53,330 nt of DNA, taken from positions 1 through 53,330 of IMG/VR virus record IMGVR_UViG_3300037010_000252. The stretch is one strand, 5' to 3'. Position numbers and translations under genes: made by a program. This stretch comes from a virus. Below the pieces are notes generated by a model. That model was given only the letters and a program-made list of their open reading frames with translations. It did no database searches and had not been told where the DNA came from. Positions 2,922-26,424 of the stretch are shown here, one piece after another. The first letter of the stretch is position 1; every line of letters begins with the position of its first letter.

Positions 2922-4528
2922 ACACTACGGCAAGAAAAGATGATGACTTTGATTTTCGTGTTGTCGATCTGCGTCATGACACAGATATTTATGTTGTCGG
3001 TCTGCGTCAGGGAACAAAAGAGTGGCTTGAGCACAGAGCAAAACATTACAACGCCAGCGATGCTCCTGCTATGTTGGGGTTGTCTCGCTATAAGACACGC
3101 CAGCAATTACTGCGCGAAACAGTTACCGGGGTTGTTCCAGATGTTGACGAGGAAACGCAACGCCGCTTCGATAGAGGCCATGAGCTTGAGGCAATCGCAA
3201 GGCCGTGGGCTGAGGAAATCATAGGCGCAGAACTTTTCCCTGTAGTGCTGTCTGGAAACATTGACGGATTGCCGCTATCAGCTTCGCTTGACGGGCTGAC
3301 AATGCTTGCGGACGTTGCATTCGAGCACAAGACGGGGCGCGCAGACCTTTTGGAAAGCCTGGAGGAAGGAATAATCCCTGACGAATACAAGCCTCAGATG
3401 GAGCAATGTCTTCTTCTGTCTGGCGCAACAAGATGCCTCTTTATGGCATCTAACGGCGACCGCGAAACGATGCGCTATGCTTGGTATGAGCAAGATTCGG
3501 CAGTGCGCAAGAAACTTCTAGCAGGCTGGAAACAGTTTGCCGAAGACCTGGCTAACTATCAGCACGTCGAAGTCATTCAGCCAGCCGTGGCAGATCCTCA
3601 GATGTCTCTTCCGGCAGTATTCGTCAAGGTAAACGGCAGTATTGCGCTGGACGATAACCTGTCCGTGTTTGGAGAAGCCCTAACGGCATACGTTGAGCAG
3701 ATCAACAAGAAACCACAGACTGACCAGGACTTCGTAAACCTTGAGGCCGCCGTCAAGACGCTTAAAAAAGCCGAGGACGCGCTTGATGCCGCAGAGAGTA
3801 GCGCACTCGGGCAGGTGGTCAGCGTCGATGCTATGCGCAGAACTGTTGCGTTGTATCGAGAGATGGCTCGCAATGCTCGTCTGATGATCGAAAAACTTGT
3901 TAAGGCTGAGAAGGAGAACCGTCGAGCAAAGATTATCCTTGATGCGCAAGACGCAATTATGAAACACATAGACCGCTTGAATGAGCGCGTTGGCGGGTGG
4001 ATGCCGAAAACCATTCCATCGTTCGCTGACACAATCAAGGGTCTGAAATCGTTAGATTCAATGCGCGATAAGGTTTCGACCGCGCTTGCCAATGCAAAGA
4101 TTGAGGCTAACGAACTGGCTGACCGCATCGAGTTTAATGACAAGCAGAGAACCGTTGACGGCGTGAACTACAGTTATCTAGTTCCAGACTTCGGGCAAAT
4201 CTGCATCAAGCCGAAAGAGGACTTCGCTGCAATCGTGGCGCAACGCATCGCAGAACATAAAGCTGCCGAAGCCGAGATAATGGCCGCGACAAAGCGAGAA
4301 TCATCAGCAACAGATCAACTGGCGAATGCCAGCGAATCGACGCACGTAGAGCAGAGCGCGACTACGATCCCTAGGGAACCGCTGGATAGCAGACAACCGC
4401 CCAGGATCGACGATGCTCTCATCGACGACTTCCTGTCGGTGCTTGAGATCAGCGCGCGCGAGCGCAATGAGCTTCGCCCGATCCTGGTGAAGTTCGAGAT
4501 TTTCAGAATGACAAGGAATACGAGATAA
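2918..4528 (+). CDS. YqaJ/lambda-type viral exonuclease with long C-terminal extension
   Basis: 536 residues, GTG start overlapping the annealase stop. Residues 25-210 are the YqaJ nuclease domain: GLRQGTKEWLEHR, YNASDAPAMLGLSRYKTRQQ, then the PD-(D/E)xK region with FDRGHELE, SASLDGL and FEHKTG, and a PQMEQCLLLSG helix. It should degrade double-stranded DNA 5'-3' to make single strands for Bet. The remaining roughly 300 residues are helical, partly coiled coil, and unusual in length for lambda Exo (226 residues), so an additional DNA-binding or partner-binding role is likely. The N-terminus carries an 11-residue tandem duplication (VVDLRHDTDIY then VVGLRQGTKEW). Confidence 0.88.
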   Translation: MNTTARKDDDFDFRVVDLRHDTDIYVVGLRQGTKEWLEHRAKHYNASDAPAMLGLSRYKTRQQLLRETVTGVVPDVDEETQRRFDRGHELEAIARPWAEEIIGAELFPVVLSGNIDGLPLSASLDGLTMLADVAFEHKTGRADLLESLEEGIIPDEYKPQMEQCLLLSGATRCLFMASNGDRETMRYAWYEQDSAVRKKLLAGWKQFAEDLANYQHVEVIQPAVADPQMSLPAVFVKVNGSIALDDNLSVFGEALTAYVEQINKKPQTDQDFVNLEAAVKTLKKAEDALDAAESSALGQVVSVDAMRRTVALYREMARNARLMIEKLVKAEKENRRAKIILDAQDAIMKHIDRLNERVGGWMPKTIPSFADTIKGLKSLDSMRDKVSTALANAKIEANELADRIEFNDKQRTVDGVNYSYLVPDFGQICIKPKEDFAAIVAQRIAEHKAAEAEIMAATKRESSATDQLANASESTHVEQSATTIPREPLDSRQPPRIDDALIDDFLSVLEISARERNELRPILVKFEIFRMTRNTR

Positions 4529-9981: not shown

Positions 9982-12900
9982 TTATTGATTATGCAAAGAC
10001 AATAGCTCGCCACGCAACTCCTTTGGGGCAGACTTGACAATTCGTTGTTGCCTAGTCTCGGCCATCTTCTTCACTCGCTCCATTACCTGCTTGCTAGTGA
10101 TGGAGATTTTCTTATCAGGGTTATTGGCGTTCCAGTCTGCCAATTCCTGACGTGCCTTTGTGACGGCTTCCTTGTCTCCTGTGAAAATCCCCTGCGCTAT
10201 TGCTCCAGAAATCTCGGACTCTACGTTGCGAACCAGTTGAATGTCCTGCATGTCCATCTGCGCCGTTCGGCTTTCGCGTGCCACGCTGGCTGGCTGGAAG
10301 CCGATCAGTTTAGATGCCGCGTCTAACGTGTCTGTGTTGACAACCTTCTTCCCTGAACTGTCCCGGTACATTCCAGTACTTGCCATGTCTGCTGCTTTCA
10401 GCGCATTGCGCACCGCAAGCGGCATGAACTCGCCATTCAGCGCGTCTTTAATAACTCCACCTACGGGGCCAAGCACATCAAGAACTTCTCCGGCCTTATC
10501 TGTCTTGTTCTTCAACATGATCCCTGTGCCTGGTAGTAGATTGCTCATCCCAAGGCGCGCCGAGAAATCAATCGGGAATCCAGGCAATGCAGACGTGCCA
10601 TGCAAAACAAAATCGGCGCCAGTCTGCCCCAATATCGAGGCAACGAATTTCTCCTTCTCGGCCTTGGTGTTCCACGCATAGCCCATATGCTGCGCAAGGG
10701 TGTCGATCAGGTCGTCTAGGTCGTCAGCGAACGGAAGCCCCTGTAGGCCAGCAGCCAGCACAAGAATGGCCAGCGCAATCGCCTTCTCCTTCTTCGGCAG
10801 CCTGGACAGAAATTCCATGTAGCCGATGCTGTACTGCTTGAATGTGAAAACAAGCGCACCCGCAGCACCACGTGACCAGTTGGAGCGGTTTCCGCGATTG
10901 TAAATTCCCTGGGTTTCGTTTACGGCTTCTTCCGCGAAGGCGAACGGATCGGCCATCTTGTTCTGGCGCGCGATATTGTAGGCCGCGATGAATGTAGAGC
11001 GGCGGTTGAACTGCTCGGCAAGAGAGAACAGAGACCCCCAGGCGAATAGGCCGCGCTTGCTAAGGTCGTCCAGGTTATTTGCCAAATCCCCCTTGACGCC
11101 TAACATGCGCGCCAATGCGCCTATTCCAGAACCACGCTTGAGTGCTTCTGCATGTAGCTGGTGAATCTCCTGAGGGCTGACGACGCCATCTACTTCTGCG
11201 CGCTTTAGGGCCTGCTTCAAGTCAGCGTCGAGAGTATCACCCGCAACGGCCAGTTTCATTGCCTTGGCCATCTCATACCCTGCATTCTTCGAGAACTGAT
11301 GCAGATATGGGTAGCTCATAACAATCGGCTGCGTCAGGTTTACCATTGCCGACGCCACAGATCCACCGATGTACTGCACGAACAAAAGTCCGCGCAGCTT
11401 TGTGGAATCATCTGTTGGGTTGCGCACGAAGTCTATAAGTTTGATTGCATCGTCTTTCACGTCCCCTTTTTCCTTCGGGATCGCTTCTGCAGCTTTATCC
11501 ATCTGTCCGCCGTATGCGTTCGCTGCAGCATGACGCGCGTTCGATGTGATGAAGCTGGCGAGAATGCGCGGAATGTCTTCGCTGAATCCAGCCATACCTT
11601 TGCGCCTGAGTAGTCTCTTCATGGCGCTGCGATTAGACTTCGCCAGTTTGATGTATTGCTGAACAAGTGCCTTGTTCTTAGCACCAATCGCATCTGCAAA
11701 CAATTCCAGCGTGTCCGGGCTGATTCCGTTGAACAGCTTATACGACTCGGAAGACAGCACGCCCTGAGTAAAGGTTGCCCCCGCAAATTCAGGATCGGCC
11801 TTCAGTTCGCGCATTCTGGCGTTTGCTTCTGCTTCGCTCTCGAATAGGCTGAAATAAAGCTCCTTGTCACCTTTGGTGACATAGAGCGTGTACTTGCCGA
11901 AGCGGCTCAATGGTGCGTATCCCTTGGCCTTTAGGTCGGCTACTCGCATTCCCTTGTCCAATACAGCCTTGGCGTCGTCGGACTTGCCGATACTATTTAG
12001 GTGTGCAGCAACCATTATCGCTGACCGACTTGCTGTTTCCGCATTCAGTATATCGTCGCGCAGATGTTCTGCATCTTTGCCCACGTAGCTCAGAATATCG
12101 GTTTTCCCAAGATCATCGAGAGACTTATCCACGGCTGCGCGGAACTGTCTGTAAAGCTCGATCTGGTTTTCGGTCAACTTGAATTTGTTCCGTAGCTCAT
12201 CTGCGCTGTAAACCTTCTCGTCCACAAGCGTTCCAGCGAATATAGGAGCGGAAATCGCCTTGATGTCTGCCTGACTTGGCCGCTTCGACTTCCATAGATC
12301 GCTAATCGACTTCAATTGCGGGATCAGTTTGTCAGCCATATCGGCAGCACTGTTTGCAAACGTAGCCATCCCGGATATGTATGACTGAACAGAGTCGAAC
12401 ACTTTTCGGTAATCAGCGTCAATTTGAGACTTGTGGTACGGTGTTCCGATTGACTTGTGCCACCATCCGTTGAACGTTTTCTGGGTGGTCAATAGGTCTG
12501 TGATACGCTGTGATACGGCAACCTGCATTTCGACCGTTCGGCTAAACATGGGGCTTGTGCTATCTTTAGTGGATGCACGATTCGCCTTATCCTCTTCCGA
12601 TTGAGTCTCTTGGGCCGTCCGAATACCATACCGGCCCGTCAGATCGCCATTACGGTACGCATCTGCAATGCGCTTGGCCTGTTCTGCTTCGGCCTTTAGT
12701 TTTGACTGGTATTCATCAATGGTTGGATGGCCTGCCCAAGTGTCGCCTTGCGGTTTACGCATCGAAGGATTGTCAAGCGTAACAATTCCTTGCTTAGTGC
12801 GCGAATAAGCCTCACCAGGTCGCGCATTGGTGGACTCCTTGCCTCCGTTCTCGATGAATGCCCTGGCGGGAAGGATGTAGTTTGCAATGATGTCGTTATC

Positions 12901-15900
12901 AGTCAGTTTCAGGTTCATGCCTTTGCTACGCAACCACTGCCTGATAGCCGCGATTGCGCGCTTAACGAAGCCAATTTCCGGGCGCGTCTCGGCCATGTTT
13001 ACCAATACTTCCTCGGCGGCTTTCAGTAGGTCGTTCTCATTTTTAGGGTCAAAACCGTATTCCTTGACCTTCGCATCTACTTCGGCGCGGCGCATAGCAA
13101 CAATCTGTCGCAGGATAGAATCTAGCGCATCACCGAACATACCGCGCAAACCTGCGTGACCAAGAACTTCGTGCGCGACTGTCCTGATTACGTCATAGAC
13201 GCTCTTGTGTTGGCTGGCTACGATGTAAACCTTTCCACCCGTAATGAAACCGCGCGGCTCTCCTTTTGCCCCTCTGGCCTTCATTTTTGCGTCTTCGTCG
13301 CGCACGCGCTGCGGAACCTTGGAGTCCTGCATGTCGGATACGACGATGATCTCTGGCGCGTTCCTCCAGTGGGCCGTGATCCAATTTACAATATTTTGCA
13401 CGCGGACGACGCGCTTGACTGTTTCTGCTTCTGTTAGGCCATTAGTGGCGCGCAGGAAATCAACTGAATCACTAGTATTGTCGTCTTGTTTTTCTTCTGC
13501 CCCCCTAAGTTTGGAAAGCAGCTTACTGTATTCGGCTCGTGCTTTTTCCAGCTTTGCAGTATCAGGCCATTCGCCAGGAACCTTTGTTTTATCAATCTCT
13601 TCCTTGGTCTTCTTGGCGCGCTCAAGCTGTGCCATGTTGTAGTCTAGCATGTTGCCTGCGGTAGTCACCAGTGAATCGGCAACCTTGATAACCTGATTGG
13701 CGATCTTCACCGCGTCAGTCGCATTGTCGCCAACATCTATGACCATGTTCAGCGAGTCATTGCCAACGCCAACCACGACATCAAGCATCTTGCCGTTTCT
13801 TGATTTCTGGCCTTCGACGCTGACATCAAGCTCTCCCATCTTGCCGACGTTCTTGATACTGTCTTCGGCCACCGCATCAGCAACTTCCTGTGCGATTGCT
13901 TTTGCTGCAACAGATCTCCTGTTGTAGGTTTTTCCGTTAAATTCAAGCATGAACGGTGAAGCGTCGCCTTTGATGTTTGCGTATGCTTCTGACATCAAAG
14001 CGCGCGATGTGTATTCCTTACCATTCATGACAACAGAGATAGGGGCAGCGCGATCATTCCCGTTCTCGTCTTTCACCTTGGCATTTATCTTTCCCTCAAG
14101 GTATTCACCAGCCTTGTCCGGGTCTGTGTAGGTGGTTCCGTCGATAACAACCTTGAAGTTGTCGCGCTGCTTTTTAACCGCGTTACGGTACGCCTTGGCA
14201 GCTCCATCCATGCGTTTGGACTTCTCAATTTGCTTTGGCAGGCTTGCAAGCTGCTCGTTTACTTTGCGAGCGCGGTTGATGATGTCATTCTTTTGCGCCT
14301 CAAACGACCGCTTGCGCTGCTCTAGCTTCTTGATTTCTGAGCGCATCTGGATTTCCTTGAGCAAATCCATGTTTCCTGTTGCGGCGGCTTGCATTTCCCC
14401 TGCTGACATTTCCATGTCATCAAATGGATTTTCGATTTCTCGGCTCACGTTACGGGTGCGAAGCTGATTAATCATTTTCAGCTTCGCTTCCTGTATCTGC
14501 CACATGCGCAAATCAAGCGTGTCCTGCGTGACGTAGGCAAGAATCTCTACCTCAAATCCATTAAGGGTATCGGACAGCTTGTTTCCTTGACGGATGATGC
14601 GCCCCTCGCGCTGTTCTACGTCGGATGGCTTCCACGGAACATCAAGGTGGTGCAATGCGACAAGTCGTTCTTGTACGTTTGTACCGGCACCCATCTTGGA
14701 GGTTGATCCAATCAATACACGAATCTGCCCACTATTAACCTTTCGGAACAGTGCTGCTTTCTGGTCGTCTGTGTTGGCGTCATGAATGAATGCGATCTCG
14801 GCTTCCGGTATGCCGCGTTCGACAAGGGCCGACCTAAGATCGTCATAGACCGAGAATCCGCGAAGAGCTGCATTGATGGCATCAAGCCAGTCCCTTCCCT
14901 TGGCGTTAAGCTTCTCCTGTGCCGCCTCGCTTGCCTCAACCTTTGCAAGCGCATCCTCATTGCCAACCGCAGCTAGAGACTGCACTTGTTCAGTGTTTCC
15001 AGCATCAATTATGGCGCGCAGTTCCTCGTATTCCTTGATCTCTGCTTTAGCTTGTTTGAGCGGAGTGCCAAGGTCTGAAAAGACAAGTTGTGCCCCCTTA
15101 TTGTCGTCGTACTGCTGGTATCGCTCGAAGATTTCATCGGCAGCACGGTCGATTCTGCCTCCACTCTCGCGCTCGGTGATTTCAGGTCTGACAAGGCGAA
15201 TATCCATCGCCGCCTTGCGCGCGTCTGTCATAATGACAAGTGCATTGTCCTCGCCCTTTTCTGGGCGGCCACCTCTGGCTGCAAGTTCCTTTGCGCGCTT
15301 TGCGATTTCCGCCATGTATTCTGTCTGTGCCTGCGACCTTGTGAGCGCAACGGGCTGACGTTTGCCGTCTTTCAGCTTTGGAAGGGGAAATTCTCGGCCT
15401 CCGTGTTCTTCACGGAATGCAGCCTTGATGTCTTCCATAGTAACCGTATCGGAAACCTGGTCGAACATTTTTAGCAATTCTGTGGTGTTGACGAAGGTGT
15501 TCATTCGGTTAGACGGCTTGTAGCCATCCCCGCCCATATTCTGCATGAATACCTGCTGCACGGACGCGAAAGTGTTTGCCCAGGAGTCAAACGAATCGAA
15601 ACCTGCCTCCTTCATTTGGTCTGGCATCAGGTAGCGCATCATGTGGTACATCTCTGCCAGCGAGTTTGAAACTGGTGTTCCAGTCGCAAATACAAGACCT
15701 TGACCGCGCCCGTTCTTCTCGAAAATCTGATTAGCCTTGATATACATATCATAGGCACGCTGGCTTCCTGCCGGGTCTCCCAATCCCTGAACATTCTGCA
15801 TTTTGGTCGAGAACATTAGGTTCTTGAACAGGTGTGCCTCATCAACGAACAGTTGATCTACGCCAATCTGTCCGAAGTCAAGCAAATCATCTGTCGCCTT

Positions 15901-18900
15901 ATCGCGCAACTTTTCGATGCGGTTTTCCAGCCTTTCGATCAACCCCTGCAACTGTTTAACCGTGCGCTTTTTCTGTTTGGATTCTCCGTCTCCTTCTTTA
16001 ACAGAATTGATTGTCTTGACGATGTTCTTTATCTGTTCCTCGTTGAACCTGGCCTCGAACTCGGGGGACGGCTTGATGAACCCGAACGAAGAGTGGGCGA
16101 TGATTACCGCATCCCAATCACCAGTTGCAATTTTTGCCAGGAATCTGCGACGATTAAGTTTTGAGAAGTCCTTCTTTGTTGCAGTAAGGATGTTTGCGCC
16201 AGGGTATAGCCTATAGAAGTCTGCCGCCCACTGCTTGACTAGATGGTTTGGCACCACGATCATTGGCTTTTTGGCGAGGCCTGTGCGCTTTAGCTCCATA
16301 GCTGCGGCGATAATTGTGTATGTCTTGCCAGCGCCAACGACATGATCCAGAAGAACTGTGCGATCCTGGACGATGCGCGCGATAGCATTGCGCTGGTGAC
16401 GGCGGAATTTGATAATGCTGTCAGGAACCTTTCCAGGAAAGCGCATCCACGATCCGTCATACTTGCGCGTCACATAGTTGTTATTGGTATCGTTGTACGC
16501 GCGCACAAGAATTTCTGAGCGTTCCGGATCTGAGAACAGCCAATCCTGAAAGCGGTCACGTATCTCTTGCGCCTTTGTGTTAGCGTCTTCTGTTTCCTTG
16601 ACAAGTGTGTAAGTCCTACCATCGAAGTCCTTGCCACTCACCTTGATGGTGCGATTATTAAGGATTGCCGATAGCAGCATGTCTCCGCTATATTCCTTGG
16701 TTCCCCAAGTGTTTGTCGCCTTTATTTCTGATCCAGGTTGAATCGAAACTGAATATGAGCTATTTGCGGGGATATAAGTAATGCTGGCCGTGGTTCCTTC
16801 GCCAAACAGTTCTTTTGCGAAGTCCTCATAAACACTCTCTGGAACCCACGGTGAGCCGACGCGGGCCGCAATCTCGTGCGCCCCAACATCTTCTGGGATA
16901 ACTTCTTCCAATGCCTGGACATTGTTCATCATTCCAGCAGCTTTCGCCTGCTTTAGCTTGTCGCGGACGTTTCCTGACAAGTAAGCATCGCGCAGCATGT
17001 ATTCATTGGTAGCAGGATCAATGAACAAAAGTGGCTTGTCTCCTGTGGAGAGCTTTTCCAGAACTTCGTCGGCCTGCATTCCGAGAAGTTTTCCGATATA
17101 TTCGGCATCTATCTTCCCTCGTTCGGCCATCGAAATAGCTATAGCGTCGGCGGGGCTGTCTGCCTTTTCAACAATCTTGCGCGCATCTACCACACGCTGA
17201 TTGAAGATCGGTGCTTTCTTGGCTCTAGACTTGAAGGCAGGTATTCCGAGCGACTTTGCGGCCGCATTTCCCATGCCGCGCGTGTAGTCATACTCAAGAG
17301 AAGCCAATAGAGGATAATCTGGGTCATCTCCGAATACGCGAGATGTGCTCATGTCATTCAGCAACCCATGCTTCTTGGTGTATGAGTCATATTGCTCGTT
17401 AAGTCTATCGCGTAGCGCGTTCATGGATTCGTCACCACGAATCTCGGCGGCCAACAATTTACGCAGAGTGTCACGCATGGCAACCAATTGCTTAATGCGA
17501 TCGAACCCAGACTCACCAAGTTTGGTTTTTTCAGTCCATTGGGTGTCAGGTGTAATCTGTCTGCTGTATGTCTCACCGTCAAGACCGCGAACACGAATTA
17601 ACAGCTTGTCACCATCACTATAGAATCCGCCGTCAAGCACATCTAGCTTACCTAGAGCGGCAGACTCAGCATTGACGGCGTTATCGGTATTCGTTATCGA
17701 GCGATCCGTATAGACGTTGGCCGGTAGATTTGCTACAGCTTCTCGCAGAATCTCCAGCGTATCTTGTCCATCGCGTGCAATGAGTGCAGGCATACCCGGC
17801 CCATACATGGTTCCGTATGCGCCGTACTTGCCAAGCATCATGTGCTCATTGTCTGCGAAGTACTGATTGAGAGGGACGCGGTTCCCTTCGTCGTCGATAG
17901 CAACTACAACATCCATCCACCGTTTCGCGTCTTCTCTGGTAGCTTTCGTACCCCATTCTGATTCTGGCAGTTTTTGCAAGAAGATCAGGTCGGTAGTGAC
18001 TTCTGTGTTTGCGTTCTTGCTGAAAGCGTTATTTGGCAGCCGGATAGCGCCCAATAGCTTTGCGCGGTCAGAAATGTACCGGCGAGCAGCATCACCTTTG
18101 GAGTCTAGGAAATTGCTTGTGACAACCTGGGCAAGAATCCCTCCTTCGCGTAGCATGTCCACTGCCTTGGCAAAGAAGTAGTTATGTAGAGACAGCCCAG
18201 ACAGGTGCTTGCGACCTGATTTATCAACCTGCTTATCAGATGCGAAGGGAGGATTTCCAACTGCAACGTCATAGTAGTTGTCGCTTCCCTGAAATTCCGT
18301 GAAGTCAGCTTGCTGAACGTTCTGCTTAGGGTATAGCTGCTTTGCTATCTTGACGGCAAACGGCTCGCGTTCAATGGCGGTTACACGTCCGCCACTACGC
18401 ATGTCAATAGGCATCAAGCCGATGAAGTTTCCGACTCCAGCGCCAGCCTCAAGAACACGTCCACCATTGAAACCCATGCTGCGAAGTGCGGCATAGATAC
18501 CGTCAACAATGACTTCGCGCGATGTGTAGTGGGCATAGCGTGTTGAGCGTGCGGCGTCTGCGAACTCCTGTTCAGACATCAGGCTGCGTAGTTCGGCGTA
18601 TTCCTTTGCCCAATCTTTATTGGACTCATCAAACGCCTGCGGGATTCCACCCCATCCAACGTACTTCGCAAGTACGCGCTGCTCATCAGGGGTCGCAGGA
18701 CGGTTTTCCTCGTCCAGTTTTTTCAGAAGTCGGATTGCCGCGACATTGTTCTTGAACTTGGTTTTTTGCCCACCCTCGCCAAGCCCTAGATCATCATTAA
18801 TAATGAAGTCGTCAGGCTTAAACTGTGGAGGATCGGTCCTCGGCGCGTTTGGTGCCTCGTCTTCCTGGTTTACTGCTCCGGATCCCCCGGAATTGTCACC

Positions 18901-21900
18901 GATGCCATTGTCTTGTTGTAGTCTGCCATTGCTGCGTGGCCTAGGCTCTGTTCCATTTCTTCGTCCTGCCCCGTCTCCGGCGCTGGAAACAGGTAGTCCT
19001 CCCGCGTCATTTCCCACGCTTCCGTCTGGCTGAACCCCTCGCGCACCAGGTTCTGCATTTCCTCTGCCGTTGCCTGTGCTGCTTCCATCAGGTTTTTCTG
19101 CAGCGTTCCCTCCTTCACCATGCGCGCCACCATTTCTGGAAGGTACTCCTTCCAGTGTTCTAGTGCCTGCCTCATCCAGTTTTCGTACTGCATTACCGTC
19201 ACCCTCTTGAGGTTTGTTTATAGATGATGTGGCTGCGGTGTCAACTGGCGGCTTCCATTTGGTGAAGCGGTATTTTGCATCGCTCTCGATGCTGTCTAGC
19301 GCCTCATGCTTTGACCATCCACCTTTCGGCCCGGCTCCACCATTGGTGATGGTTGCGCCTGATCCATCGTCGCGCGACTTCATCACCCATCCGTTGTCGG
19401 TTTTCTCTATCCATACGGTACGGCCATCGACGCCAGCATAGTCGAAATGCGCCTTGTATCCAGCATCGACCGCACCTATCAATTCGTCTAGCGTGTTTGG
19501 ATACTTGGTTTCCACAGCATCCTTTATATGCTCTCTCAGCACGGAAGCCGCGCGCGGGAACAATTCAGCAAACGCATTGAACGGCTCAACATTTCCTCTC
19601 TTGATTGCTTCGACAATGGCGTCTTCCGCATCGAATATGCTGGTACGCATCTTGCGAAGGTCGGACTCAAGTTGAGTTACTTCTGCCTTAAGCGCCGTTT
19701 TTTCAGCCAACAGCATGGGTTCATTGAGTTTATTTCTGACGCGGCGGATCGCGTCTTCCTTGCGCTGCATGGTATATTGCAGCGCATCTCCTATTTCACC
19801 CGGTATTGAAACGGTTCCGGCTTTCGCGGGAACTTTCTCTACTTTGACCGGCTCCTCCTCAGCAATACCTGCCGCCTTAGCTTTGGTGTCCTCCTTGGCC
19901 GAAAGGCCGTTGATGTCGAATCGCTCAACATCGTCCGCGCTGCTCATTTCCTTCTGAAACGCTGTGGCGCGCGGGTCGTACTTGACACCCATGTACCACG
20001 ATTTCAGGTACGGTTTCACGGCGTCACCAAGGTCTGCAATCATTGCCTTGGCGTAGGCAACAAAGGTGCGCGCACCCTTTTCAATGTGATAGCCCGCCAA
20101 AGTAATACCGGCCTGCATAACTTCCGGGTCGATGCCGCTGTTAAGCTGCCCGGACAGTTTCTTTTTAAGAAGCGCACGCGCTGCTGCTGCTGCATCCTCT
20201 GTAAATATAGTGTTCTTAGACACCTTTGGATGGTCGAGAAGATCGGACTGGTTGTGGTTGGCATCTGCCGCACGATCTGATCCAGTCAAGGTGAAGCTGT
20301 TGCGCTCCGCGTCGGCGCGCGCCTTGGCATCTGCTTCTGCCTCTGCCTTTGCTTTGTCCGATTCGGCCTTTCTATCTGCCTCGGACTTGGCTTTTAGTTC
20401 TTCTGGCGTCTGCCGATTTAGCGCGAAGTCTTCGGTTTGAGAGGATGTAGTAGGCTGATTGCCTACGCCTTCCTCAGAAGCTCCGCTTTCTTGCGACGTA
20501 TAACCGACAGCCGTCTCTTTAGTAGCGCCAGTTGTAGTACCTTCTTGCGCTCCCTTGGTGTCAGTTCCTTTAGCCGATTCACTATGTTGTCCGGTTGATT
20601 CATTGATTTCGTCCTCGCTAAATCCGAGCGCACGCATGATCTCGGCTTCACTCGTGCTCTCCTTGAAGTCAGGAATATCGTCCTCTTCGTCGAATGTCAT
20701 GCCTTCTAGGTTGGTTTCACTGGCGATTTCCTCGGCCAACGTTTCTGCATCGGATGGCAGTTCTGCCTCAATCTCCGCTTCCTGTTTGGCAAGTTTCTGT
20801 TCTCTTGCAACAAGCTCGTTGTAGTGCTCACGGTCGGCCGCAGACATAACCGAGTTTTTATTCAGCGCCTCCCGTACCAAGTCGCGCGCAGCCTGAACAC
20901 CGCCGTCAACGTCATTGTATTCAGCGTCGGTAATGTATCCTGCCTCGTGTAACTTTCTGGCAACCAGATCAAGGGCGTTTCCATCTTTTCGGAAAAGACC
21001 AGGGGCCATGCGGACGGCACCGATCCCCTTCTCTCCGGTGATGTCGCTGGCTTCCTGAATCTTGATGCCGCCAATCTTCTTTATGGTGTCGATGAACTTC
21101 TTGCGAGATGACTCAGCAAATTCGTCGCTGGTCGTGGCGACATCTTTCTTCGATTTTTCCTTGCTGCCGGATGCAGGAATAATGCCTTTCTCTCCAGCGT
21201 AAATCCTTTGTTTGCTAGACAGCGCCCCGGCATCCTTAATGGCTTTGCTGACCGTTGCGAAGTCTGAACTAGCGACAGGGATGTTTTCTCCGGTCTCGAA
21301 GTTTTGAGCCGGATACTCTCCAATGTAAACGACGCCATTTCGGACGGTGACTGGTTCTGTGCTTTTCGGCGTGGTTCCGACTCGCGCAATAACCTGGTTC
21401 GCACCAGCATCAGTAGTATTGCTTACCTGCCGCGTTTTCCCTTGGCTGGATGCATTGGCTTCTGGACTTTTGTCGCCTGCATTGGTTTCTGTGCTTTTGT
21501 TGGTTGCATGGGTTTCTTGGCTTTGTCCGCCTGGTTGAACTCCCGCGCCACCGACTGCGGGACTCCCGCTTCCTTGGCGAATTTCTTGTTGTGCGCTGCT
21601 GCCTGCATTAAGCGTGCTTGTGCCGGGGACTTGCTTGGCATTTTCTACTCCTTGTGGTTGGTTGAAATGATTGCTGGTTGGCTCGGTGGTTACATTCGAG
21701 TCGGCCACCCCAACCGTTCCAGAAGACTTATCCGCCGTGCCGCCTGGTACAGAGATTCCGGTAGCTCCACTTGCTCCCACGGGTCTGCCAGCATCGCTGT
21801 TTTGTGCAGCAACTCCGCCTCCTGGTAGCTGATTACCTGCGCGTTCAGGGCTTTGCGAAGCCAACTCGGAAACTGCTGTGCTTTGATTTCCTGCGCCATT

Positions 21901-23295
21901 GTTTGCTACCTGTTCTGTTTTTGGTTCGTTTGGAATAATTCCTGCAGCAATGGCCGGAGTGCCTTGTTGTTCAGGTGCGGGCGTGCCGGGGAGAGCAATT
22001 CCCAATACACTCTCAGGTGCAATCGCCCCAGAATCAATTCCGGTAGATGCCGCGCGGGCAATCGCCCCGTCACCAAGTTGGGCCTTGGCCGTCTCGACAA
22101 TATTAGGTGCCGCGTCGTTAGATGCCGCGTCATTGGCGGCCATCGTGCGCTTGATTTCAAGGTCGCGCCGCATTACCGCCTGGTTGGCCGCCTGTTGGGC
22201 ATAGAAAGCCTTTATTTCTTCTGGGGTATAAAGTTCTCCGGTATTTGGGTTAGTGTCGGTAGTAGTCGGGGGCGGCAGGACTTCACCTGCATCGGGAACG
22301 ACACGACCGCTGCGCAAGTTTGCACCTGCGCCCATGATTCCGCCTGTAATGCCGCCCTCCACTGCCTGCCGTAAAACGCCTTCTGACAGCGGCTTATTGT
22401 CTGCGTAATTCTGCCACGCCTGTTCCTGCGCCGACTGAGGGACTTCCTGCAATATGCCTTCGCTGGCCGCTCCTCCGGCTATGCGCTTCCACGCTGAAAG
22501 TCCATTTTTTCCACTTTCCAGTGCGGTATTATCCAGCCCCTTAGCCATTGCCGTTTCGGCAGTTTCCAGCCCAAGTTTGTTGGCGATATGCCCGCCCACA
22601 CCTGAAATTAGGGCGTCTATACCGCCAGAAGCAAGTGCTGCGATAGCATTCTTCTGCTGGTCATTGCCCTGGTACTGATCCATTTGCTGCCCGGACTGGA
22701 TTGCGCCTTCGCCAATACCTCCGGCAATTGCCGCCGATTTATCACCGGCTAGACGCTCAAGGTAGCCAGTTCCTGCTTTTCTTGCTGCGGCTCCTGCTGC
22801 GACTTCTGCGGCTGGCGTCAATACACGTCCAGCAGTCATAAGACCACGGCCAATAGCCCCACCAGCCAACATAGAGGGAGCAGACTCAGCCACCTGATTT
22901 ACCGAATACATCGGGTTTTTCAGGTACTCGGCGGCCACATCAAAGCCGTTCTTGTTTTGATCCTTCCATGCGGCGTCGATGTCCTGCTGTGACTTGACGT
23001 ATTCTGGAGAGTATTGCGATTCCAGCTCCTTGGCTTTCTGCCCAGGAGAAAATCCGATTGCCTTGCCAATTTTTTCGGCGGTATCTGATATGGGCCTGCC
23101 CAAGCCGGAAAGCGCAAACGGCAAGTCAGCTATTCCGGTAGCAATTCCAGGAATTTCCGCAATTCCGCGCATGATAGATAGGCCAAGATCAGAATGATTT
23201 GGCTTTCCTACCGGCTTTGCGTTGGAAGATTGGAATAACCCGAGTGGGTCGTTATTCTGCTGCAAAAGACCAAGTGGATCGTTACTGTCAGCCAT
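9982..23295 (-). CDS. Giant polyvalent virion-type protein: methylase, SNF2-like helicase, PLxRFG/LPD C-terminus
   Basis: 4437 residues. Residues 90-330: Ala/Gly-rich hydrophobic stretches. About 650-1000: conserved globular segment. About 1570-1760: N6-adenine methylase, VLEAGAGVGNF (~1612) and NPPF (~1680). About 2300-2920: helicase, Walker A GAGKT (~2320), VDEAH (~2482), ATGTP (~2538), QREGRIIRQG (~2893). About 3374: HEVLGH, a possible zincin site, spaced HExxxH rather than HExxH. About 3794: PLSRFG, the PLxRFG signature. About 4175: hydrophobic AIALAILVLAAGLQGLPF. Proteins of this kind occur in Bcep22-like podoviruses as virion components and relate to DarB-type antirestriction proteins, so co-injection with DNA and protection against host restriction is the best guess. 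Linkers at about 360-640, 890-1060 and 1365-1560 are low-complexity and overlap nested ORFs. It is the last of the structural genes. Confidence 0.9.
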   Translation of the reverse strand: MADSNDPLGLLQQNNDPLGLFQSSNAKPVGKPNHSDLGLSIMRGIAEIPGIATGIADLPFALSGLGRPISDTAEKIGKAIGFSPGQKAKELESQYSPEYVKSQQDIDAAWKDQNKNGFDVAAEYLKNPMYSVNQVAESAPSMLAGGAIGRGLMTAGRVLTPAAEVAAGAAARKAGTGYLERLAGDKSAAIAGGIGEGAIQSGQQMDQYQGNDQQKNAIAALASGGIDALISGVGGHIANKLGLETAETAMAKGLDNTALESGKNGLSAWKRIAGGAASEGILQEVPQSAQEQAWQNYADNKPLSEGVLRQAVEGGITGGIMGAGANLRSGRVVPDAGEVLPPPTTTDTNPNTGELYTPEEIKAFYAQQAANQAVMRRDLEIKRTMAANDAASNDAAPNIVETAKAQLGDGAIARAASTGIDSGAIAPESVLGIALPGTPAPEQQGTPAIAAGIIPNEPKTEQVANNGAGNQSTAVSELASQSPERAGNQLPGGGVAAQNSDAGRPVGASGATGISVPGGTADKSSGTVGVADSNVTTEPTSNHFNQPQGVENAKQVPGTSTLNAGSSAQQEIRQGSGSPAVGGAGVQPGGQSQETHATNKSTETNAGDKSPEANASSQGKTRQVSNTTDAGANQVIARVGTTPKSTEPVTVRNGVVYIGEYPAQNFETGENIPVASSDFATVSKAIKDAGALSSKQRIYAGEKGIIPASGSKEKSKKDVATTSDEFAESSRKKFIDTIKKIGGIKIQEASDITGEKGIGAVRMAPGLFRKDGNALDLVARKLHEAGYITDAEYNDVDGGVQAARDLVREALNKNSVMSAADREHYNELVAREQKLAKQEAEIEAELPSDAETLAEEIASETNLEGMTFDEEDDIPDFKESTSEAEIMRALGFSEDEINESTGQHSESAKGTDTKGAQEGTTTGATKETAVGYTSQESGASEEGVGNQPTTSSQTEDFALNRQTPEELKAKSEADRKAESDKAKAEAEADAKARADAERNSFTLTGSDRAADANHNQSDLLDHPKVSKNTIFTEDAAAAARALLKKKLSGQLNSGIDPEVMQAGITLAGYHIEKGARTFVAYAKAMIADLGDAVKPYLKSWYMGVKYDPRATAFQKEMSSADDVERFDINGLSAKEDTKAKAAGIAEEEPVKVEKVPAKAGTVSIPGEIGDALQYTMQRKEDAIRRVRNKLNEPMLLAEKTALKAEVTQLESDLRKMRTSIFDAEDAIVEAIKRGNVEPFNAFAELFPRAASVLREHIKDAVETKYPNTLDELIGAVDAGYKAHFDYAGVDGRTVWIEKTDNGWVMKSRDDGSGATITNGGAGPKGGWSKHEALDSIESDAKYRFTKWKPPVDTAATSSINKPQEGDGNAVRKLDEAGTRTLEGVPSRNGGAHGEGGNAAEKPDGSSTGNGRGNAEPGARGVQPDGSVGNDAGGLPVSSAGDGAGRRNGTEPRPRSNGRLQQDNGIGDNSGGSGAVNQEDEAPNAPRTDPPQFKPDDFIINDDLGLGEGGQKTKFKNNVAAIRLLKKLDEENRPATPDEQRVLAKYVGWGGIPQAFDESNKDWAKEYAELRSLMSEQEFADAARSTRYAHYTSREVIVDGIYAALRSMGFNGGRVLEAGAGVGNFIGLMPIDMRSGGRVTAIEREPFAVKIAKQLYPKQNVQQADFTEFQGSDNYYDVAVGNPPFASDKQVDKSGRKHLSGLSLHNYFFAKAVDMLREGGILAQVVTSNFLDSKGDAARRYISDRAKLLGAIRLPNNAFSKNANTEVTTDLIFLQKLPESEWGTKATREDAKRWMDVVVAIDDEGNRVPLNQYFADNEHMMLGKYGAYGTMYGPGMPALIARDGQDTLEILREAVANLPANVYTDRSITNTDNAVNAESAALGKLDVLDGGFYSDGDKLLIRVRGLDGETYSRQITPDTQWTEKTKLGESGFDRIKQLVAMRDTLRKLLAAEIRGDESMNALRDRLNEQYDSYTKKHGLLNDMSTSRVFGDDPDYPLLASLEYDYTRGMGNAAAKSLGIPAFKSRAKKAPIFNQRVVDARKIVEKADSPADAIAISMAERGKIDAEYIGKLLGMQADEVLEKLSTGDKPLLFIDPATNEYMLRDAYLSGNVRDKLKQAKAAGMMNNVQALEEVIPEDVGAHEIAARVGSPWVPESVYEDFAKELFGEGTTASITYIPANSSYSVSIQPGSEIKATNTWGTKEYSGDMLLSAILNNRTIKVSGKDFDGRTYTLVKETEDANTKAQEIRDRFQDWLFSDPERSEILVRAYNDTNNNYVTRKYDGSWMRFPGKVPDSIIKFRRHQRNAIARIVQDRTVLLDHVVGAGKTYTIIAAAMELKRTGLAKKPMIVVPNHLVKQWAADFYRLYPGANILTATKKDFSKLNRRRFLAKIATGDWDAVIIAHSSFGFIKPSPEFEARFNEEQIKNIVKTINSVKEGDGESKQKKRTVKQLQGLIERLENRIEKLRDKATDDLLDFGQIGVDQLFVDEAHLFKNLMFSTKMQNVQGLGDPAGSQRAYDMYIKANQIFEKNGRGQGLVFATGTPVSNSLAEMYHMMRYLMPDQMKEAGFDSFDSWANTFASVQQVFMQNMGGDGYKPSNRMNTFVNTTELLKMFDQVSDTVTMEDIKAAFREEHGGREFPLPKLKDGKRQPVALTRSQAQTEYMAEIAKRAKELAARGGRPEKGEDNALVIMTDARKAAMDIRLVRPEITERESGGRIDRAADEIFERYQQYDDNKGAQLVFSDLGTPLKQAKAEIKEYEELRAIIDAGNTEQVQSLAAVGNEDALAKVEASEAAQEKLNAKGRDWLDAINAALRGFSVYDDLRSALVERGIPEAEIAFIHDANTDDQKAALFRKVNSGQIRVLIGSTSKMGAGTNVQERLVALHHLDVPWKPSDVEQREGRIIRQGNKLSDTLNGFEVEILAYVTQDTLDLRMWQIQEAKLKMINQLRTRNVSREIENPFDDMEMSAGEMQAAATGNMDLLKEIQMRSEIKKLEQRKRSFEAQKNDIINRARKVNEQLASLPKQIEKSKRMDGAAKAYRNAVKKQRDNFKVVIDGTTYTDPDKAGEYLEGKINAKVKDENGNDRAAPISVVMNGKEYTSRALMSEAYANIKGDASPFMLEFNGKTYNRRSVAAKAIAQEVADAVAEDSIKNVGKMGELDVSVEGQKSRNGKMLDVVVGVGNDSLNMVIDVGDNATDAVKIANQVIKVADSLVTTAGNMLDYNMAQLERAKKTKEEIDKTKVPGEWPDTAKLEKARAEYSKLLSKLRGAEEKQDDNTSDSVDFLRATNGLTEAETVKRVVRVQNIVNWITAHWRNAPEIIVVSDMQDSKVPQRVRDEDAKMKARGAKGEPRGFITGGKVYIVASQHKSVYDVIRTVAHEVLGHAGLRGMFGDALDSILRQIVAMRRAEVDAKVKEYGFDPKNENDLLKAAEEVLVNMAETRPEIGFVKRAIAAIRQWLRSKGMNLKLTDNDIIANYILPARAFIENGGKESTNARPGEAYSRTKQGIVTLDNPSMRKPQGDTWAGHPTIDEYQSKLKAEAEQAKRIADAYRNGDLTGRYGIRTAQETQSEEDKANRASTKDSTSPMFSRTVEMQVAVSQRITDLLTTQKTFNGWWHKSIGTPYHKSQIDADYRKVFDSVQSYISGMATFANSAADMADKLIPQLKSISDLWKSKRPSQADIKAISAPIFAGTLVDEKVYSADELRNKFKLTENQIELYRQFRAAVDKSLDDLGKTDILSYVGKDAEHLRDDILNAETASRSAIMVAAHLNSIGKSDDAKAVLDKGMRVADLKAKGYAPLSRFGKYTLYVTKGDKELYFSLFESEAEANARMRELKADPEFAGATFTQGVLSSESYKLFNGISPDTLELFADAIGAKNKALVQQYIKLAKSNRSAMKRLLRRKGMAGFSEDIPRILASFITSNARHAAANAYGGQMDKAAEAIPKEKGDVKDDAIKLIDFVRNPTDDSTKLRGLLFVQYIGGSVASAMVNLTQPIVMSYPYLHQFSKNAGYEMAKAMKLAVAGDTLDADLKQALKRAEVDGVVSPQEIHQLHAEALKRGSGIGALARMLGVKGDLANNLDDLSKRGLFAWGSLFSLAEQFNRRSTFIAAYNIARQNKMADPFAFAEEAVNETQGIYNRGNRSNWSRGAAGALVFTFKQYSIGYMEFLSRLPKKEKAIALAILVLAAGLQGLPFADDLDDLIDTLAQHMGYAWNTKAEKEKFVASILGQTGADFVLHGTSALPGFPIDFSARLGMSNLLPGTGIMLKNKTDKAGEVLDVLGPVGGVIKDALNGEFMPLAVRNALKAADMASTGMYRDSSGKKVVNTDTLDAASKLIGFQPASVARESRTAQMDMQDIQLVRNVESEISGAIAQGIFTGDKEAVTKARQELADWNANNPDKKISITSKQVMERVKKMAETRQQRIVKSAPKELRGELLSLHNQ
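18870..19193 (-). CDS. Nested gene in +1 frame of the giant gene (small phage protein)
   Basis: 107 residues from ATG 19193, with GAGG 9 bases upstream (a GTG at 19202 is the alternative start). The product MQYENWMRQALEHWKEYLPE followed by MVARMVKEGTLQKNLMEAAQ and GFSQTEAWEMTREDYLFPAP is a normal helical protein with Trp, Tyr and charged residues, and it resembles a known group of phage proteins ending in an E-A-W-E-M-x-R-E-x-Y-L motif. The giant protein in the same bases (residues about 1368-1476) is Gly/Asn/Ser-rich with no order. This strongly suggests the +1 frame is the older coding frame. Confidence 0.7.
   Translation of the reverse strand: MQYENWMRQALEHWKEYLPEMVARMVKEGTLQKNLMEAAQATAEEMQNLVREGFSQTEAWEMTREDYLFPAPETGQDEEMEQSLGHAAMADYNKTMASVTIPGDPEQ
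20463..20603 (-). CDS. Nested short basic protein in +1 frame of the giant gene
   Basis: 46 residues from ATG 20603 with GAGGA 8 bases upstream. Product MNQPDNIVNRLKELTPRERK followed by KVLQLALLKRRLSVIRRKKA and a basic end: two amphipathic helices. The giant frame over it (residues about 898-945) is Thr/Gly/Ser/Glu-rich. No family name is offered. An in-frame ATG at 20651 is less likely because it has no ribosome site. Confidence 0.5.
   Translation of the reverse strand: MNQPDNIVNRLKELTPRERKKVLQLALLKRRLSVIRRKKAELLRKA
21423..21641 (-). CDS. Nested gene in +1 frame of the giant gene (MPSKSPAQ family)
   Basis: 72 residues. AAGGAG lies exactly 6 bases before the ATG. The N-terminus MPSKSPAQARLMQAAAHNKK and then FAKEAGVPQSVAREFNQADK is a stereotyped small phage protein (MPSKS-x-Q-x2-LM-x-A-x-AHN-x2-FAK-x3-VPQSV-x-x-EF-x-x-ADK) known as a separate gene in other phages, usually of unknown function. 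The C-terminus repeats KPMQ/KPMH units. The giant protein here (residues about 552-625) reads as a Ser/Thr/Gly/Asn-rich linker. The combination of family match and ribosome site makes this the best supported of the nested genes. Confidence 0.78.
   Translation of the reverse strand: MPSKSPAQARLMQAAAHNKKFAKEAGVPQSVAREFNQADKAKKPMQPTKAQKPMQATKVQKPMHPAKGKRGR
21690..21899 (-). CDS. Possible nested gene in +1 frame of the giant gene
   Basis: 69 residues. The product MAQEIKAQQFPSWLRKALNA, then QVISYQEAELLHKTAMLADP and WEQVELPESLYQAARRISLL, has balanced composition, three Trp and helical periodicity, unlike the giant frame (residues about 466-536), which is Gly/Ser/Ala/Asn. An AGG 9 bases before the ATG is a moderate ribosome site. 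It lies 48 bases upstream of the MPSKSPAQ ORF in the same frame, so the two may form a small nested operon. Family not recognised. Confidence 0.5.
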   Translation of the reverse strand: MAQEIKAQQFPSWLRKALNAQVISYQEAELLHKTAMLADPWEQVELPESLYQAARRISLLERLGWPTRM

Positions 23296-23373
23296 TGCCT
23301 TGAATCCTACTAATTGTGGGTTTTCATGATTCTATCGGTGCTGATACTTGGTGTTCTACTACCCCAGACGCAT

Positions 23374-25449
23374 TCACTGAACTCCATAGATAGCATATAG
23401 TGATTTAATTTGCGCAGGATCGGTTATCCCCTTCGCTTTGGCGGCCGCATCGACCTGCTCCTTGGTGACTGACATGCCGCCAGCCTGTGTTCCTCCATTC
23501 ATCCCGACGTACTGCCCGGTGCGCGTGTTGAACGGAACCTTGAGTTTAATCGGATTGCCAAGCGCGTCAACACCGCTCTCGATTTCGGCAAGGATGTACT
23601 TATCGTAGTTAGTGCCTCTGGCTGCGTTCAGTTGAGAAAGCAAAGATTCTCGTGTCTTGTCGTCCTTGGCGTTCATGAACTCGGCAAGCAGTTTGTCCTG
23701 CGTTGCCGATCTGTCGTTCTCCAACTTGGCTCCACGTGTGCGCTCCTGGTCGTAGGCATTGAGGGGCTTCGGAGTGAGATCTGCGGCGATCTTGAGCTTT
23801 GTGGCCTCGAGGTTAGATGCATTAGTACTCTGGTTATTTAAGACCAGTGCAGCGTTGCTGTTTCCGCTGAGTGCGGCATTTCGCATCCCATCCATATAAA
23901 TGCTGTCAAGACTTGCCTTGTCCTGCGCTGCTTGCGCCTGTCCATTCTTTAGGTTTGCAGCATCGCTTGCCTGCCGTTCGGCCATGATCTGTGCGCCGGT
24001 CTTGCCGTTGGAGAATTTGGAGGCAATATACGGGTTAGGCGTAGAGTCTCCGTATGAAACACGACCATCCTTGCCGACCGATTTGGTAACACCTCCGTAG
24101 CCGTCCATAGCGAAGCGGGCATTGTCAGCCGCAACGCTTTGCGAAGTGTTCTGTCTGGCGCGAATACCCTTGTTAACGATGTCCACCATTTGCGGGCTGA
24201 GCTCCGACGCCGTGCGGTTTTTGTAAAACGTCTCTGCCGCTGCCGGGTCATTGAACTTCGTATCTCCCTGCGCATCGTTGAATTTCTGTGCGAACCTGCC
24301 AGCCTGCTCGGCAAGCAGCGCATCATTGTTTGCTGTGAAAGTTGAATCAGCCAGCGCCTTGCTGTTGAGTGTTCCATCCGGCGCGCGAACACTGGCAGGG
24401 AGGGTGGCTTCAGCCGATGTAGCAGTGGTTGACGGTACTACGGATGGCGCTGCAGCAACATTCCCGCTTTGGGCGGCCTGAACCACTGGCTGTGCTTGGA
24501 CAGCTTTGTTATTAGGCGACGATTGACCAGCAATGCTAGGTTGCGCGGCTGCATTACCGCTGTCACCGAACAATGGCTTCCCAACAAATTCTCGACCGAC
24601 ATACTTTTGTCCGGTGTATCCGGTACGAATATCTGCCCCAAAGGAGTCCGCCGCGTTGGCAATTGGGGCGGCAATTGCCCCAGGAATGTTGTTGGCGATT
24701 GACAGCGCGGCCTGACGTGTATTCTCAAGACTCCTTGCTGCATTTCCGATAGCCTCGCCTGTACCGCTTGCTACGTTTGCTACTACACGAGATGCTGCAC
24801 CGATGTTCTGTCCAACAGGCTGCGACGGAGGCGCAGTGCCAAACATTGCTTCTCCAAGCGTCGGGATCGTACTTGCTGGCTTGTAAAAGTCAGAAACCCA
24901 AGGCTTTTTTTTGTCTGTTTGGCCTCCGTCAGCCATCCCCCGCATGATTGCTGGCTTGTTCTTAGGGTCAACGAACTTATGTGTCTTGGCTCTGATTGCG
25001 TCAAGGGCTTTCTGGCCTCCCATCGCCTGAACTGTATCTGCGGGAAGAACGTATTCACCATTGGATAGCGCAACAGGCCCTACTTTGTCATCTGTCTTGC
25101 CTCCTGGGCCATACACCTTTCCACCATGTCCGCGCTCGATTTTGGCAGCATTGCCGCGCTTCATTCCTCCATCTTTCATGCCTCGGCGTTGTGCTTCAAG
25201 CATCTCGGCAGGAGGGGTAGCGCCATCCCTGATCCGCGACATTCCGCCCTTGCCAGCCGGTGCCGAAATGGTTTGGGTTTGGCTGCCGGTGGCATCATCC
25301 AGTGCGGATTCAATCCTGTTGCCACGTGTAGCTAGCGCAATACCAGCATCTCGCGCCATCCCTGTGCCGAGCATGTACGGGTTCGCTCCGCCGTTGGCCA
25401 TCCTCGGAATGCCGCAGGCAATCGACGCCTTTTTGTTGTGCTTCTTCAT
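23374..25449 (-). CDS. Large virion-associated protein
   Basis: 691 residues. N-terminal 190 residues are Gly/Lys-rich with GGMSRIRDGATPP, GGKVYGPGGKTDDKVGPVAL and SNGEYVLPADTVQAMG; the GEYVLPA-like motif occurs in many phage structural proteins. The rest is Ala/Asn/Gln-rich, likely helical and partly disordered, with a globular end (YDKYILAEIESGVDALGNPI). It lies directly upstream of the giant gene in the late operon, so the two may be ejection or internal virion proteins. AGGAGA precedes the ATG. Function is not known. Confidence 0.75.
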   Translation of the reverse strand: MKKHNKKASIACGIPRMANGGANPYMLGTGMARDAGIALATRGNRIESALDDATGSQTQTISAPAGKGGMSRIRDGATPPAEMLEAQRRGMKDGGMKRGNAAKIERGHGGKVYGPGGKTDDKVGPVALSNGEYVLPADTVQAMGGQKALDAIRAKTHKFVDPKNKPAIMRGMADGGQTDKKKPWVSDFYKPASTIPTLGEAMFGTAPPSQPVGQNIGAASRVVANVASGTGEAIGNAARSLENTRQAALSIANNIPGAIAAPIANAADSFGADIRTGYTGQKYVGREFVGKPLFGDSGNAAAQPSIAGQSSPNNKAVQAQPVVQAAQSGNVAAAPSVVPSTTATSAEATLPASVRAPDGTLNSKALADSTFTANNDALLAEQAGRFAQKFNDAQGDTKFNDPAAAETFYKNRTASELSPQMVDIVNKGIRARQNTSQSVAADNARFAMDGYGGVTKSVGKDGRVSYGDSTPNPYIASKFSNGKTGAQIMAERQASDAANLKNGQAQAAQDKASLDSIYMDGMRNAALSGNSNAALVLNNQSTNASNLEATKLKIAADLTPKPLNAYDQERTRGAKLENDRSATQDKLLAEFMNAKDDKTRESLLSQLNAARGTNYDKYILAEIESGVDALGNPIKLKVPFNTRTGQYVGMNGGTQAGGMSVTKEQVDAAAKAKGITDPAQIKSLYAIYGVQ

Positions 25450-25467
25450 GGTAATTCTCCTGATTCC

Positions 25468-26424
25468 TTACTGAAAGACGTTTTCGGCATGAGAAACGAT
25501 GGTACTGATAGCGTTCAGTGCAGACGCCGCAGCACGTGCAAATGCCTCTGCCTCAGCGACGACTGCACTTGCAGCAGTTGATGCAGCCTTGCTGTAACCG
25601 TCAATGTTAAGCCCCTGCTCCTTGAGTGAGGCTTCTTGGTTCGATAACGTTATCTTCATTGCCATCTCATCGCGCGCGAGACGTGCTCGGTACAAGTCTG
25701 CTGTTGCCGCCATCATGCGTGCTTTGGCGTCTAACCTTATCGACGCCACCCGCGCCGCAGTGTCCGCACCAGACACAATCGAACGGATGTAGTCAGCGGC
25801 AGCCTGTATCGCAGACATGCGAGACTTGATCGCATTATCGACGGCAAAGCGCAGGTTTTCGACCGACATATCAGCCTGCTTGATCGCCGCATCGCGTGAC
25901 GCAGCCTGCAAACTCTCAAGTTGGTCTGACTTTATCTTCGCAAGCCGCGCGGCTGCTGCGCCCGGAGGAATACTGAATCCGCGCCCAGAAAATTCGCTGA
26001 GTGTCTGTGCTTCCAGTCTCATTCCATCGGCAATTACCCTGTCGCGGTCTCGGCCCCATATCTGAGCCTCTACGTCCGGGTTAATCCCGGTTCCGCCAAG
26101 CGTGATCGAGTTCACAAGCCAGTTAGTGGCCTCGTCGAATGCGTCTGCTGCCAGCGGGTAATACTTGACGAAAAACCCCGCAAGCTCGTCCGATAGCATG
26201 GCCATTATTTTGTCTAGTTGCGCATCGAATGTGAGCGTTGGGTTCTCGACATCGGGAACGTTTGGCTCAATCGCGGTGATCGTATAGGACGCCTTGGTCG
26301 ATGACGCCCTAGGCCCGGACATAGCTCGTGTGACAGCGTTGGTGATAATCGCATCGACCGTGCCTAGATAGCCAGATGCGAGCGCGCGCTGGTTAAATAC
26401 TTCTGTGGTTGCGCTGTCTGACAT
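25468..26424 (-). CDS. Structural protein, mostly helical
   Basis: 318 residues. Long Ala-rich helices dominate from residue 150 on (RDAAIKQADMSVENLRFAVD and following), ending in an alanine-rich helical tail. The N-terminal part (TITAIEPNVPDVENPTLTFD) is extended. Such proteins accompany the tail genes of Bcep22-type podoviruses; an internal core or tail-assembly role is plausible. Its start shares a base with the stop of the upstream gene. Confidence 0.65.
   Translation of the reverse strand: MSDSATTEVFNQRALASGYLGTVDAIITNAVTRAMSGPRASSTKASYTITAIEPNVPDVENPTLTFDAQLDKIMAMLSDELAGFFVKYYPLAADAFDEATNWLVNSITLGGTGINPDVEAQIWGRDRDRVIADGMRLEAQTLSEFSGRGFSIPPGAAAARLAKIKSDQLESLQAASRDAAIKQADMSVENLRFAVDNAIKSRMSAIQAAADYIRSIVSGADTAARVASIRLDAKARMMAATADLYRARLARDEMAMKITLSNQEASLKEQGLNIDGYSKAASTAASAVVAEAEAFARAAASALNAISTIVSHAENVFQ

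Follow-up and report, generated by a model that had tools for sequence, protein, structure and literature searches.

Does a 72-codon reading frame lying wholly inside a giant gene of a virus constitute a gene of its own? The question is raised by gene B of the window, i.e., of the whole stretch of DNA analysed here (53,330 nucleotides, IMG/VR record IMGVR_UViG_3300037010_000252). The answer reached is that B is likely a real gene within a DarB-like giant gene that carries at least three guests in its +1 frame (A, B and C), translated by internal initiation; expression and function are inferred. The basis for A, B and C is homology, own starts and ribosome sites, and frame-specific conservation; for A and C, the same nested placement was found elsewhere. 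The features concerned are:

9982..23295, minus strand: the giant that hosts the guests; its DarB-like polyvalent protein of 4437 aa has methylase, SNF2/ResIII helicase and other domains
21690..21899, minus strand: gene A, nested in +1, 69 aa, immediately upstream of B
21423..21641, minus strand: nested gene B, 72 aa, +1 frame, PHROG 16759 family
18870..19193, minus strand: gene C, nested in +1, 107 aa, within the linker that precedes the methylase domain
20463..20603, minus strand: possible fourth nested +1 gene (tentative), 46 aa, basic, helical-looking (MNQPDNIVNRLKELTPRERKKVLQLALLKRRLSVIRRKKAELLRKA)

The giant host gene and its linker

21382..22305, minus strand: N-terminal linker of the giant, hosting nested A and B, about aa 330–638; low-complexity in the giant frame

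Host gene: The giant ORF was matched to phrog_10089 (DarB-like antirestriction, E = 0) in PHROGs; Pfam domains found were Eco57I/MTS methylase, ResIII, SNF2 and Helicase_C. Membership in the DarB-like polyvalent giants, taken as the phrog_10089 match with a methylase and an SNF2-type helicase in one ORF, is thus met. DarB of P1 is packaged in the virion, injected and active against restriction; for the window giant there are no such data.

Linker: A conserved domain (aa 36–330) stops before the linker and another (aa 639–703) starts after it. Across gene B the giant frame reads NAKQVPGTSTLNAGSSAQQEIRQGSGSPAVGGAGVQPGGQ..., which is G/S/Q/N-rich; the claim of the preliminary description that the giant protein is a low-complexity linker over these bases therefore held. 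No close relatives of the linker were found among viral contigs, among genomes, or by DNA pattern.

Gene B: reading frame and coding signal

21648..21653, minus strand: Shine-Dalgarno sequence AAGGAG of gene B, 6 nt before the ATG; 6-nt core match
21438..21518, minus strand: three 27-bp repeat units in the basic tail of B (KKPMQPTKA/QKPMQATKV/QKPMHPAKG)

Reading frame: The ATG of B is at 21641 and its stop at 21423, wholly within the giant ORF; 23295 − 21641 = 1654, remainder 1 modulo 3, i.e., +1 to the giant. The frame opens directly at its own ATG, one codon past a stop. The 72-codon minus-strand ORF, +1 to the giant, with AAGGAG 6 bases before ATG, was thus correctly described beforehand.

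Codon usage: With a model trained on the other genes of the window, the B stretch scored 0.125 when read as B and 0.059 when read as the giant; for control windows of other genes the values were 0.29 ± 0.09 in frame and −0.45 ± 0.18 in +1. Among the 72 nested ORFs of at least 40 codons within the giant gene, B ranked first, C second, A third and 20463..20603 fourth. A chance ORF was ruled out for B by this ranking and by the profile matches given below.

Substitutions: Between B and its nearest free-standing relatives, 6, 5 and 16 changes were counted at nested codon positions 1, 2 and 3; the third position thus takes 16/27 and the giant wobble position 5/27. Synonymous change in the giant frame with free amino acid change in the nested frame, named beforehand as a refuting outcome, did not occur. 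In the tail repeats, which are unique to the window copy among the aligned B sequences, 3, 1 and 7 columns vary at nested positions 1, 2 and 3 (7 of 9 third-position columns vs 1 of 9 at the giant's wobble position). Both patterns agree, as inferred from sequence alone, with selection in the nested frame; they do not isolate the time after nesting, and the repeat signal (3, 1, 7) is small and could possibly predate it. Selection on B after nesting is not directly measurable because the searches (viral contigs, genomes, DNA pattern, 63 giants) turned up no other virus in which a giant holds B.

Structure: The AlphaFold (AF2) model of B is predicted as three helices (pLDDT about 94 for residues 11–30) with a low-confidence, non-helical basic tail. 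The fold search against PDB gave no match better than E 2, with weak helix-turn-helix likeness only, and the sequence search of PDB gave no match.

Gene B: family and location elsewhere

Family: B was matched to PHROG 16759 with E 2.9e-19 (residues 1–50 to profile positions 1–50 of 58), and membership is met by profile over the conserved N-terminal 45–50 residues; all ten invariant family residues are kept. Profile search also matched B to the N-termini of two virion structural families, phrog_22033 and phrog_25121. With tblastn, matches were obtained in 122 phage records, and relatives are encoded by 592 stretches of viral contigs. The N-terminus had been assigned beforehand to a free-standing phage protein family; this held, PHROG 16759 being encoded by separate genes in unrelated phages, and the refuting outcome of no homologues as separate genes did not occur.

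Location: Members found elsewhere are encoded either on their own, in many cases close to terminase or portal, or as the N-terminal part of a virion protein. In BUCT555, B is a gene of its own, the second after the large terminase; the gene between the two we take from its position to be the portal. In L023, B has terL on one side and portal on the other, in L009 it is found upstream of terL, and in L010 its neighbours are replication genes. It stands alone in phiKZ-like phages, and in 201phi2-1 its neighbours point the other way. The B domain opens an 847-aa structural protein of the giant phage CBB (L004, CBB_322). The N-terminal position in CBB_322/phrog_22033 may mark a virion-targeting or assembly domain. 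The separate-gene location is usual for PHROG 16759, for which it is not a defining sequence feature, and is not met by the window copy; B of the window is a member of PHROG 16759 by sequence, in a new location.

Search for nested B: None of the 63 giant genes collected carries B in any other virus. Of 369 genomes from the class to which an Oceanospirillaceae MAG belongs, 2 have B and none has C.

Frame over free-standing B: The frame corresponding to that of the giant is open in 23 of 61 distinct B genes vs 10% in synonymous shuffles; a captured B can therefore be read through. In L006, L011, L018 and L019, free-standing B directly precedes, and probably overlaps, the start of a small-terminase-like gene, whose frame relative to B is the same as that of the window giant. 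Nesting of B in TerS genes (L006, L018, L026 and others), in which a long open frame enters terS-like or other downstream genes, was considered and rejected; that frame is likely mere upstream openness.

Gene C

19202..19208, minus strand: Shine-Dalgarno-like AAGAGGG of gene C, 8 nt before the ATG at 19193

Distribution: C was first met as the second nested +1 ORF of VvAW1 and was then searched for in the nested ORFs of 63 giants; it was found nested in 49 of the 63, always in +1. The 63 giants are not a random sample, having been collected through their similarity to a helicase segment or another part of the giant; a few loci duplicate one virus, and 44 distinct C sequences remain. Among public phages, C was found in 21 records, inside the giant CDS, which is nearly always annotated as DarB-like, methylase, transglycosylase, helicase or PLxRFG. 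Three feature tables of single-gene giants with C were inspected (Atu_ph08, Pavtok, Mwe-JY07), and none lists a separate CDS for it; no C was found on plasmids. In BcepIL02, a +1 ORF at the same place gave a weak match (E 0.002).

Start: In most copies an ATG stands four codons ahead of the conserved motif NWI..A..HWKE; a Shine-Dalgarno core of at least 4 nt precedes 75% of the starts tested vs 10% of all ATGs in the loci.

Selection: For the 44 distinct sequences in the three classes of lowest divergence, 62, 56 and 49% of substitutions fall at the nested third position and 16, 20 and 25% at the giant wobble position, which takes the fewest. In 927 of 946 pairs, amino acid identity is at least as high in the nested frame as in the giant frame. 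Purifying selection on the nested frame is thus supported for C, on 44 distinct sequences; for B the evidence is indirect only.

Structure: The AF2 model of C is predicted to be helical (pLDDT 93–96, residues 11–60). The fold search against PDB gave nothing significant; the sequence search of PDB returned mostly designed helical proteins.

PBC5: In this phage (phrog_938) the C domain lies in frame after the N-terminal part of the giant and ends a 2185-aa protein. The giant is split here (L156, AF448724 26155..32712 and 16949..25498): orf33 ends in the C domain and orf23 is the methylase part. Real gene fission with a frame change and an old sequencing indel are both possible.

Gene A

Homologues: With tblastn, the only notable matches of A were weak (E 0.4–7); they sit nested, in +1, in the giants of Vibrio phage FGH, Thalassomonas phage BA3 and Vibrio phage VvAW1, about 1.3–1.9 kb into the giant gene. 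A profile built from these homologues found another in L097 (E 3e-8), also nested in a giant. The ribosome site of A is a weak Shine-Dalgarno sequence. Assignment of A to the C-terminus of acyl-CoA dehydrogenases was rejected (Pfam E 0.07 only).

Annotated copy: BA3_0004 of Thalassomonas phage BA3, an annotated nested ORF, is the sole annotated homologue of A among the FGH, BA3 and VvAW1 records; it is given as hypothetical only, with a longer start than A, and no notice of its conservation was found.

A (21690..21899) and C (18870..19193), also +1 genes nested in this giant, were overlooked in the preliminary description.

Further nested ORFs and survey of giants

Window: No homologue was found for the product of 20463..20603. 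Two more ORFs share the +1 frame (21906..22160 and 21081..21410) and were left out; they are without homologues and of odd composition.

Survey: By codon score, 85 coding-like nested ORFs were observed in +1 of the giants vs 41.5 in codon-permuted controls, and 3 vs 0.8 in +2. Part of the +1 signal arises from local composition, according to the permutation control.

Other nested +1 segments, of which the first three are placed in N-terminal linkers: L100 and L112–L117, giant nt about 1660–2360, a conserved basic protein, KPTKPSKxARNRRKxEQRQ...; L103/L105, giant nt 2089–2326 in the N-terminal linker, a small basic protein (MPYKSRAQQGYFHT...), reminiscent of B and without a match to it; L125/L126/L128, giants without C, giant nt 2779–4339, a conserved ORF, LGWPKSVxxLIEDGxYLxxLxxQEEQE...NHLAxHEIAELYGLSP; L154, giant nt 11359–11881, also L138, L140 and L156b, giants of Rhizobiales phages and prophages, a segment FDTLQKWxxHL...PPGDPxRxxxLKQARQIIREK.

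Proposed explanation

Translation: In the proposed mechanism, the giant mRNA would also be read by ribosomes starting internally at the guests' own sites, giving short helical proteins; there are no expression data. Internal initiation is the simplest route since the guests have their own starts. The giant frame would tolerate them by way of disordered linkers, in which its own amino acids matter little and almost any composition may be accepted.

Age of the guests: C may have long occupied the slot that precedes the methylase domain, and A may be an older occupant of the N-terminal linker; both are placed as older because of their distribution. B would be a more recent guest, its family being otherwise a separate gene, often in the head/packaging region. 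Homologues of B are separate genes in unrelated phages, and its history is therefore independent of the giant. The inference made beforehand, that a foreign small gene was overprinted by or inserted into the linker, is supported; whether the small gene was inserted or the giant frame grew across a gene already in place is undecided, for want of a close relative that has the same linker and lacks B.

Function: The most likely role of B is that of a small basic accessory of virion assembly or packaging, with a helical head and a basic repeat tail; it is a guess suggested by gene neighbourhood and by the virion-protein N-termini, and the replication neighbours in L010 speak against it.

Bolder reading: The DarB-like giants may be standing hosts of nested genes, their disordered linkers being reused as second-frame space; we consider this reading fairly likely. 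All well-supported cases are in +1. On this reading C would be an ancient, near-universal guest, and the changing guests (A, B and the proteins of L103/L105, L112–L117 and L126/L128, basic or helical) would have been acquired separately in different phages.

Alternative explanations

Recent capture: B might be a recently captured fragment, intact by recency and untranslated or unused, with only A and C at work. In its favour, B is nested only in this virus among the 63 giants, and there is no close relative for a selection test. Against it, the start, the 6-nt Shine-Dalgarno core, the stop and the ten invariant residues are all intact; in the tail repeats, which are specific to the window, variation falls mostly on nested third positions; and B directly follows another nested gene. 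This alternative is considered unlikely.

Frameshifting: Instead of being separate genes, the nested segments might be alternative domains of the giant, C-terminal or internal, that ribosomes enter by a +1 frameshift, as the in-frame C domain of PBC5 would suggest. However, a conserved ATG with a Shine-Dalgarno sequence stands at the C start in most giants, stops close the +1 frame ahead of C in the window and in others, and B begins at its own ATG one codon past a stop; PBC5 is a single old sequence, in which the shift may be an indel or a sequencing error. Because of the conserved ATGs and upstream stops, this explanation is held to be very improbable.

Artefact: That composition or assembly left +1 open by chance, the gene likeness being a by-product of conserved giant sequence, has in its favour the frequent +1 openness of giant linkers in GC-rich phages (41.5 in permuted controls vs 85 observed) but is all but excluded, the giant frame over C being less conserved than the nested frame, the B homologues being unrelated to giants, and C being present in 49 separately fetched loci.

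Comparison with known systems

The reading preferred here, that A, B and C are genes nested in the giant, is set beside three known systems; a fourth, BA3_0004, is given under gene A.

DarB-like polyvalent proteins: These proteins of phages and conjugative elements were described by Iyer et al. (2017, PMC5512222), and the window giant is of the same kind. Small-ORF cassettes were placed there beside the polyvalent genes, not inside them; no mention of overlapping or overprinted genes was found in that paper, and no description of nested genes in DarB-like genes in the open-access literature searched. Nested genes are already known; nesting in DarB-like giants is apparently undescribed in that literature. 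A giant-gene class of many cultured phages thus appears to carry a conserved second-frame gene, unannotated in the records examined, and small phage proteins of unknown function come within reach in the cultured phages Atu_ph08, VvAW1, Pavtok and Itty13.

PHROG 16759: The members of this family (58 aa, unknown function) and the N-termini of phrog_22033/phrog_25121 share with B the pattern MPSKSPAQxRLMxAAAHNxxFAKxxGxPQSVAxEFxxADK and the length class. They occur as a separate gene or as the N-terminus of a virion protein, whereas B of the window lies inside another gene and has a basic repeat tail not seen in these relatives. The variable guests include a family that elsewhere is an ordinary gene, and B would be one of few natural examples in which a coding linker has captured a gene whose ancestry is known.

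Rz1-in-Rz: Completely nested genes in tailed phages are known from few cases, such as the lysis gene Rz1 nested in Rz of lambdoid phages; BcepIL02 has an Rz1-like nested lysis pair, gp75/gp76. Like A, B and C, these inner genes are on the same strand as the outer gene, fully contained in it, in another frame and provided with their own ribosome site. Strand, containment and frame agree for the window guests; own start and ribosome site are met by B (AAGGAG, 6 nt, ATG) and by C (conserved across giants), and weakly by A. The Rz1 proteins are unrelated to A, B and C, and the window differs in having several guests in the linkers of one multidomain giant.
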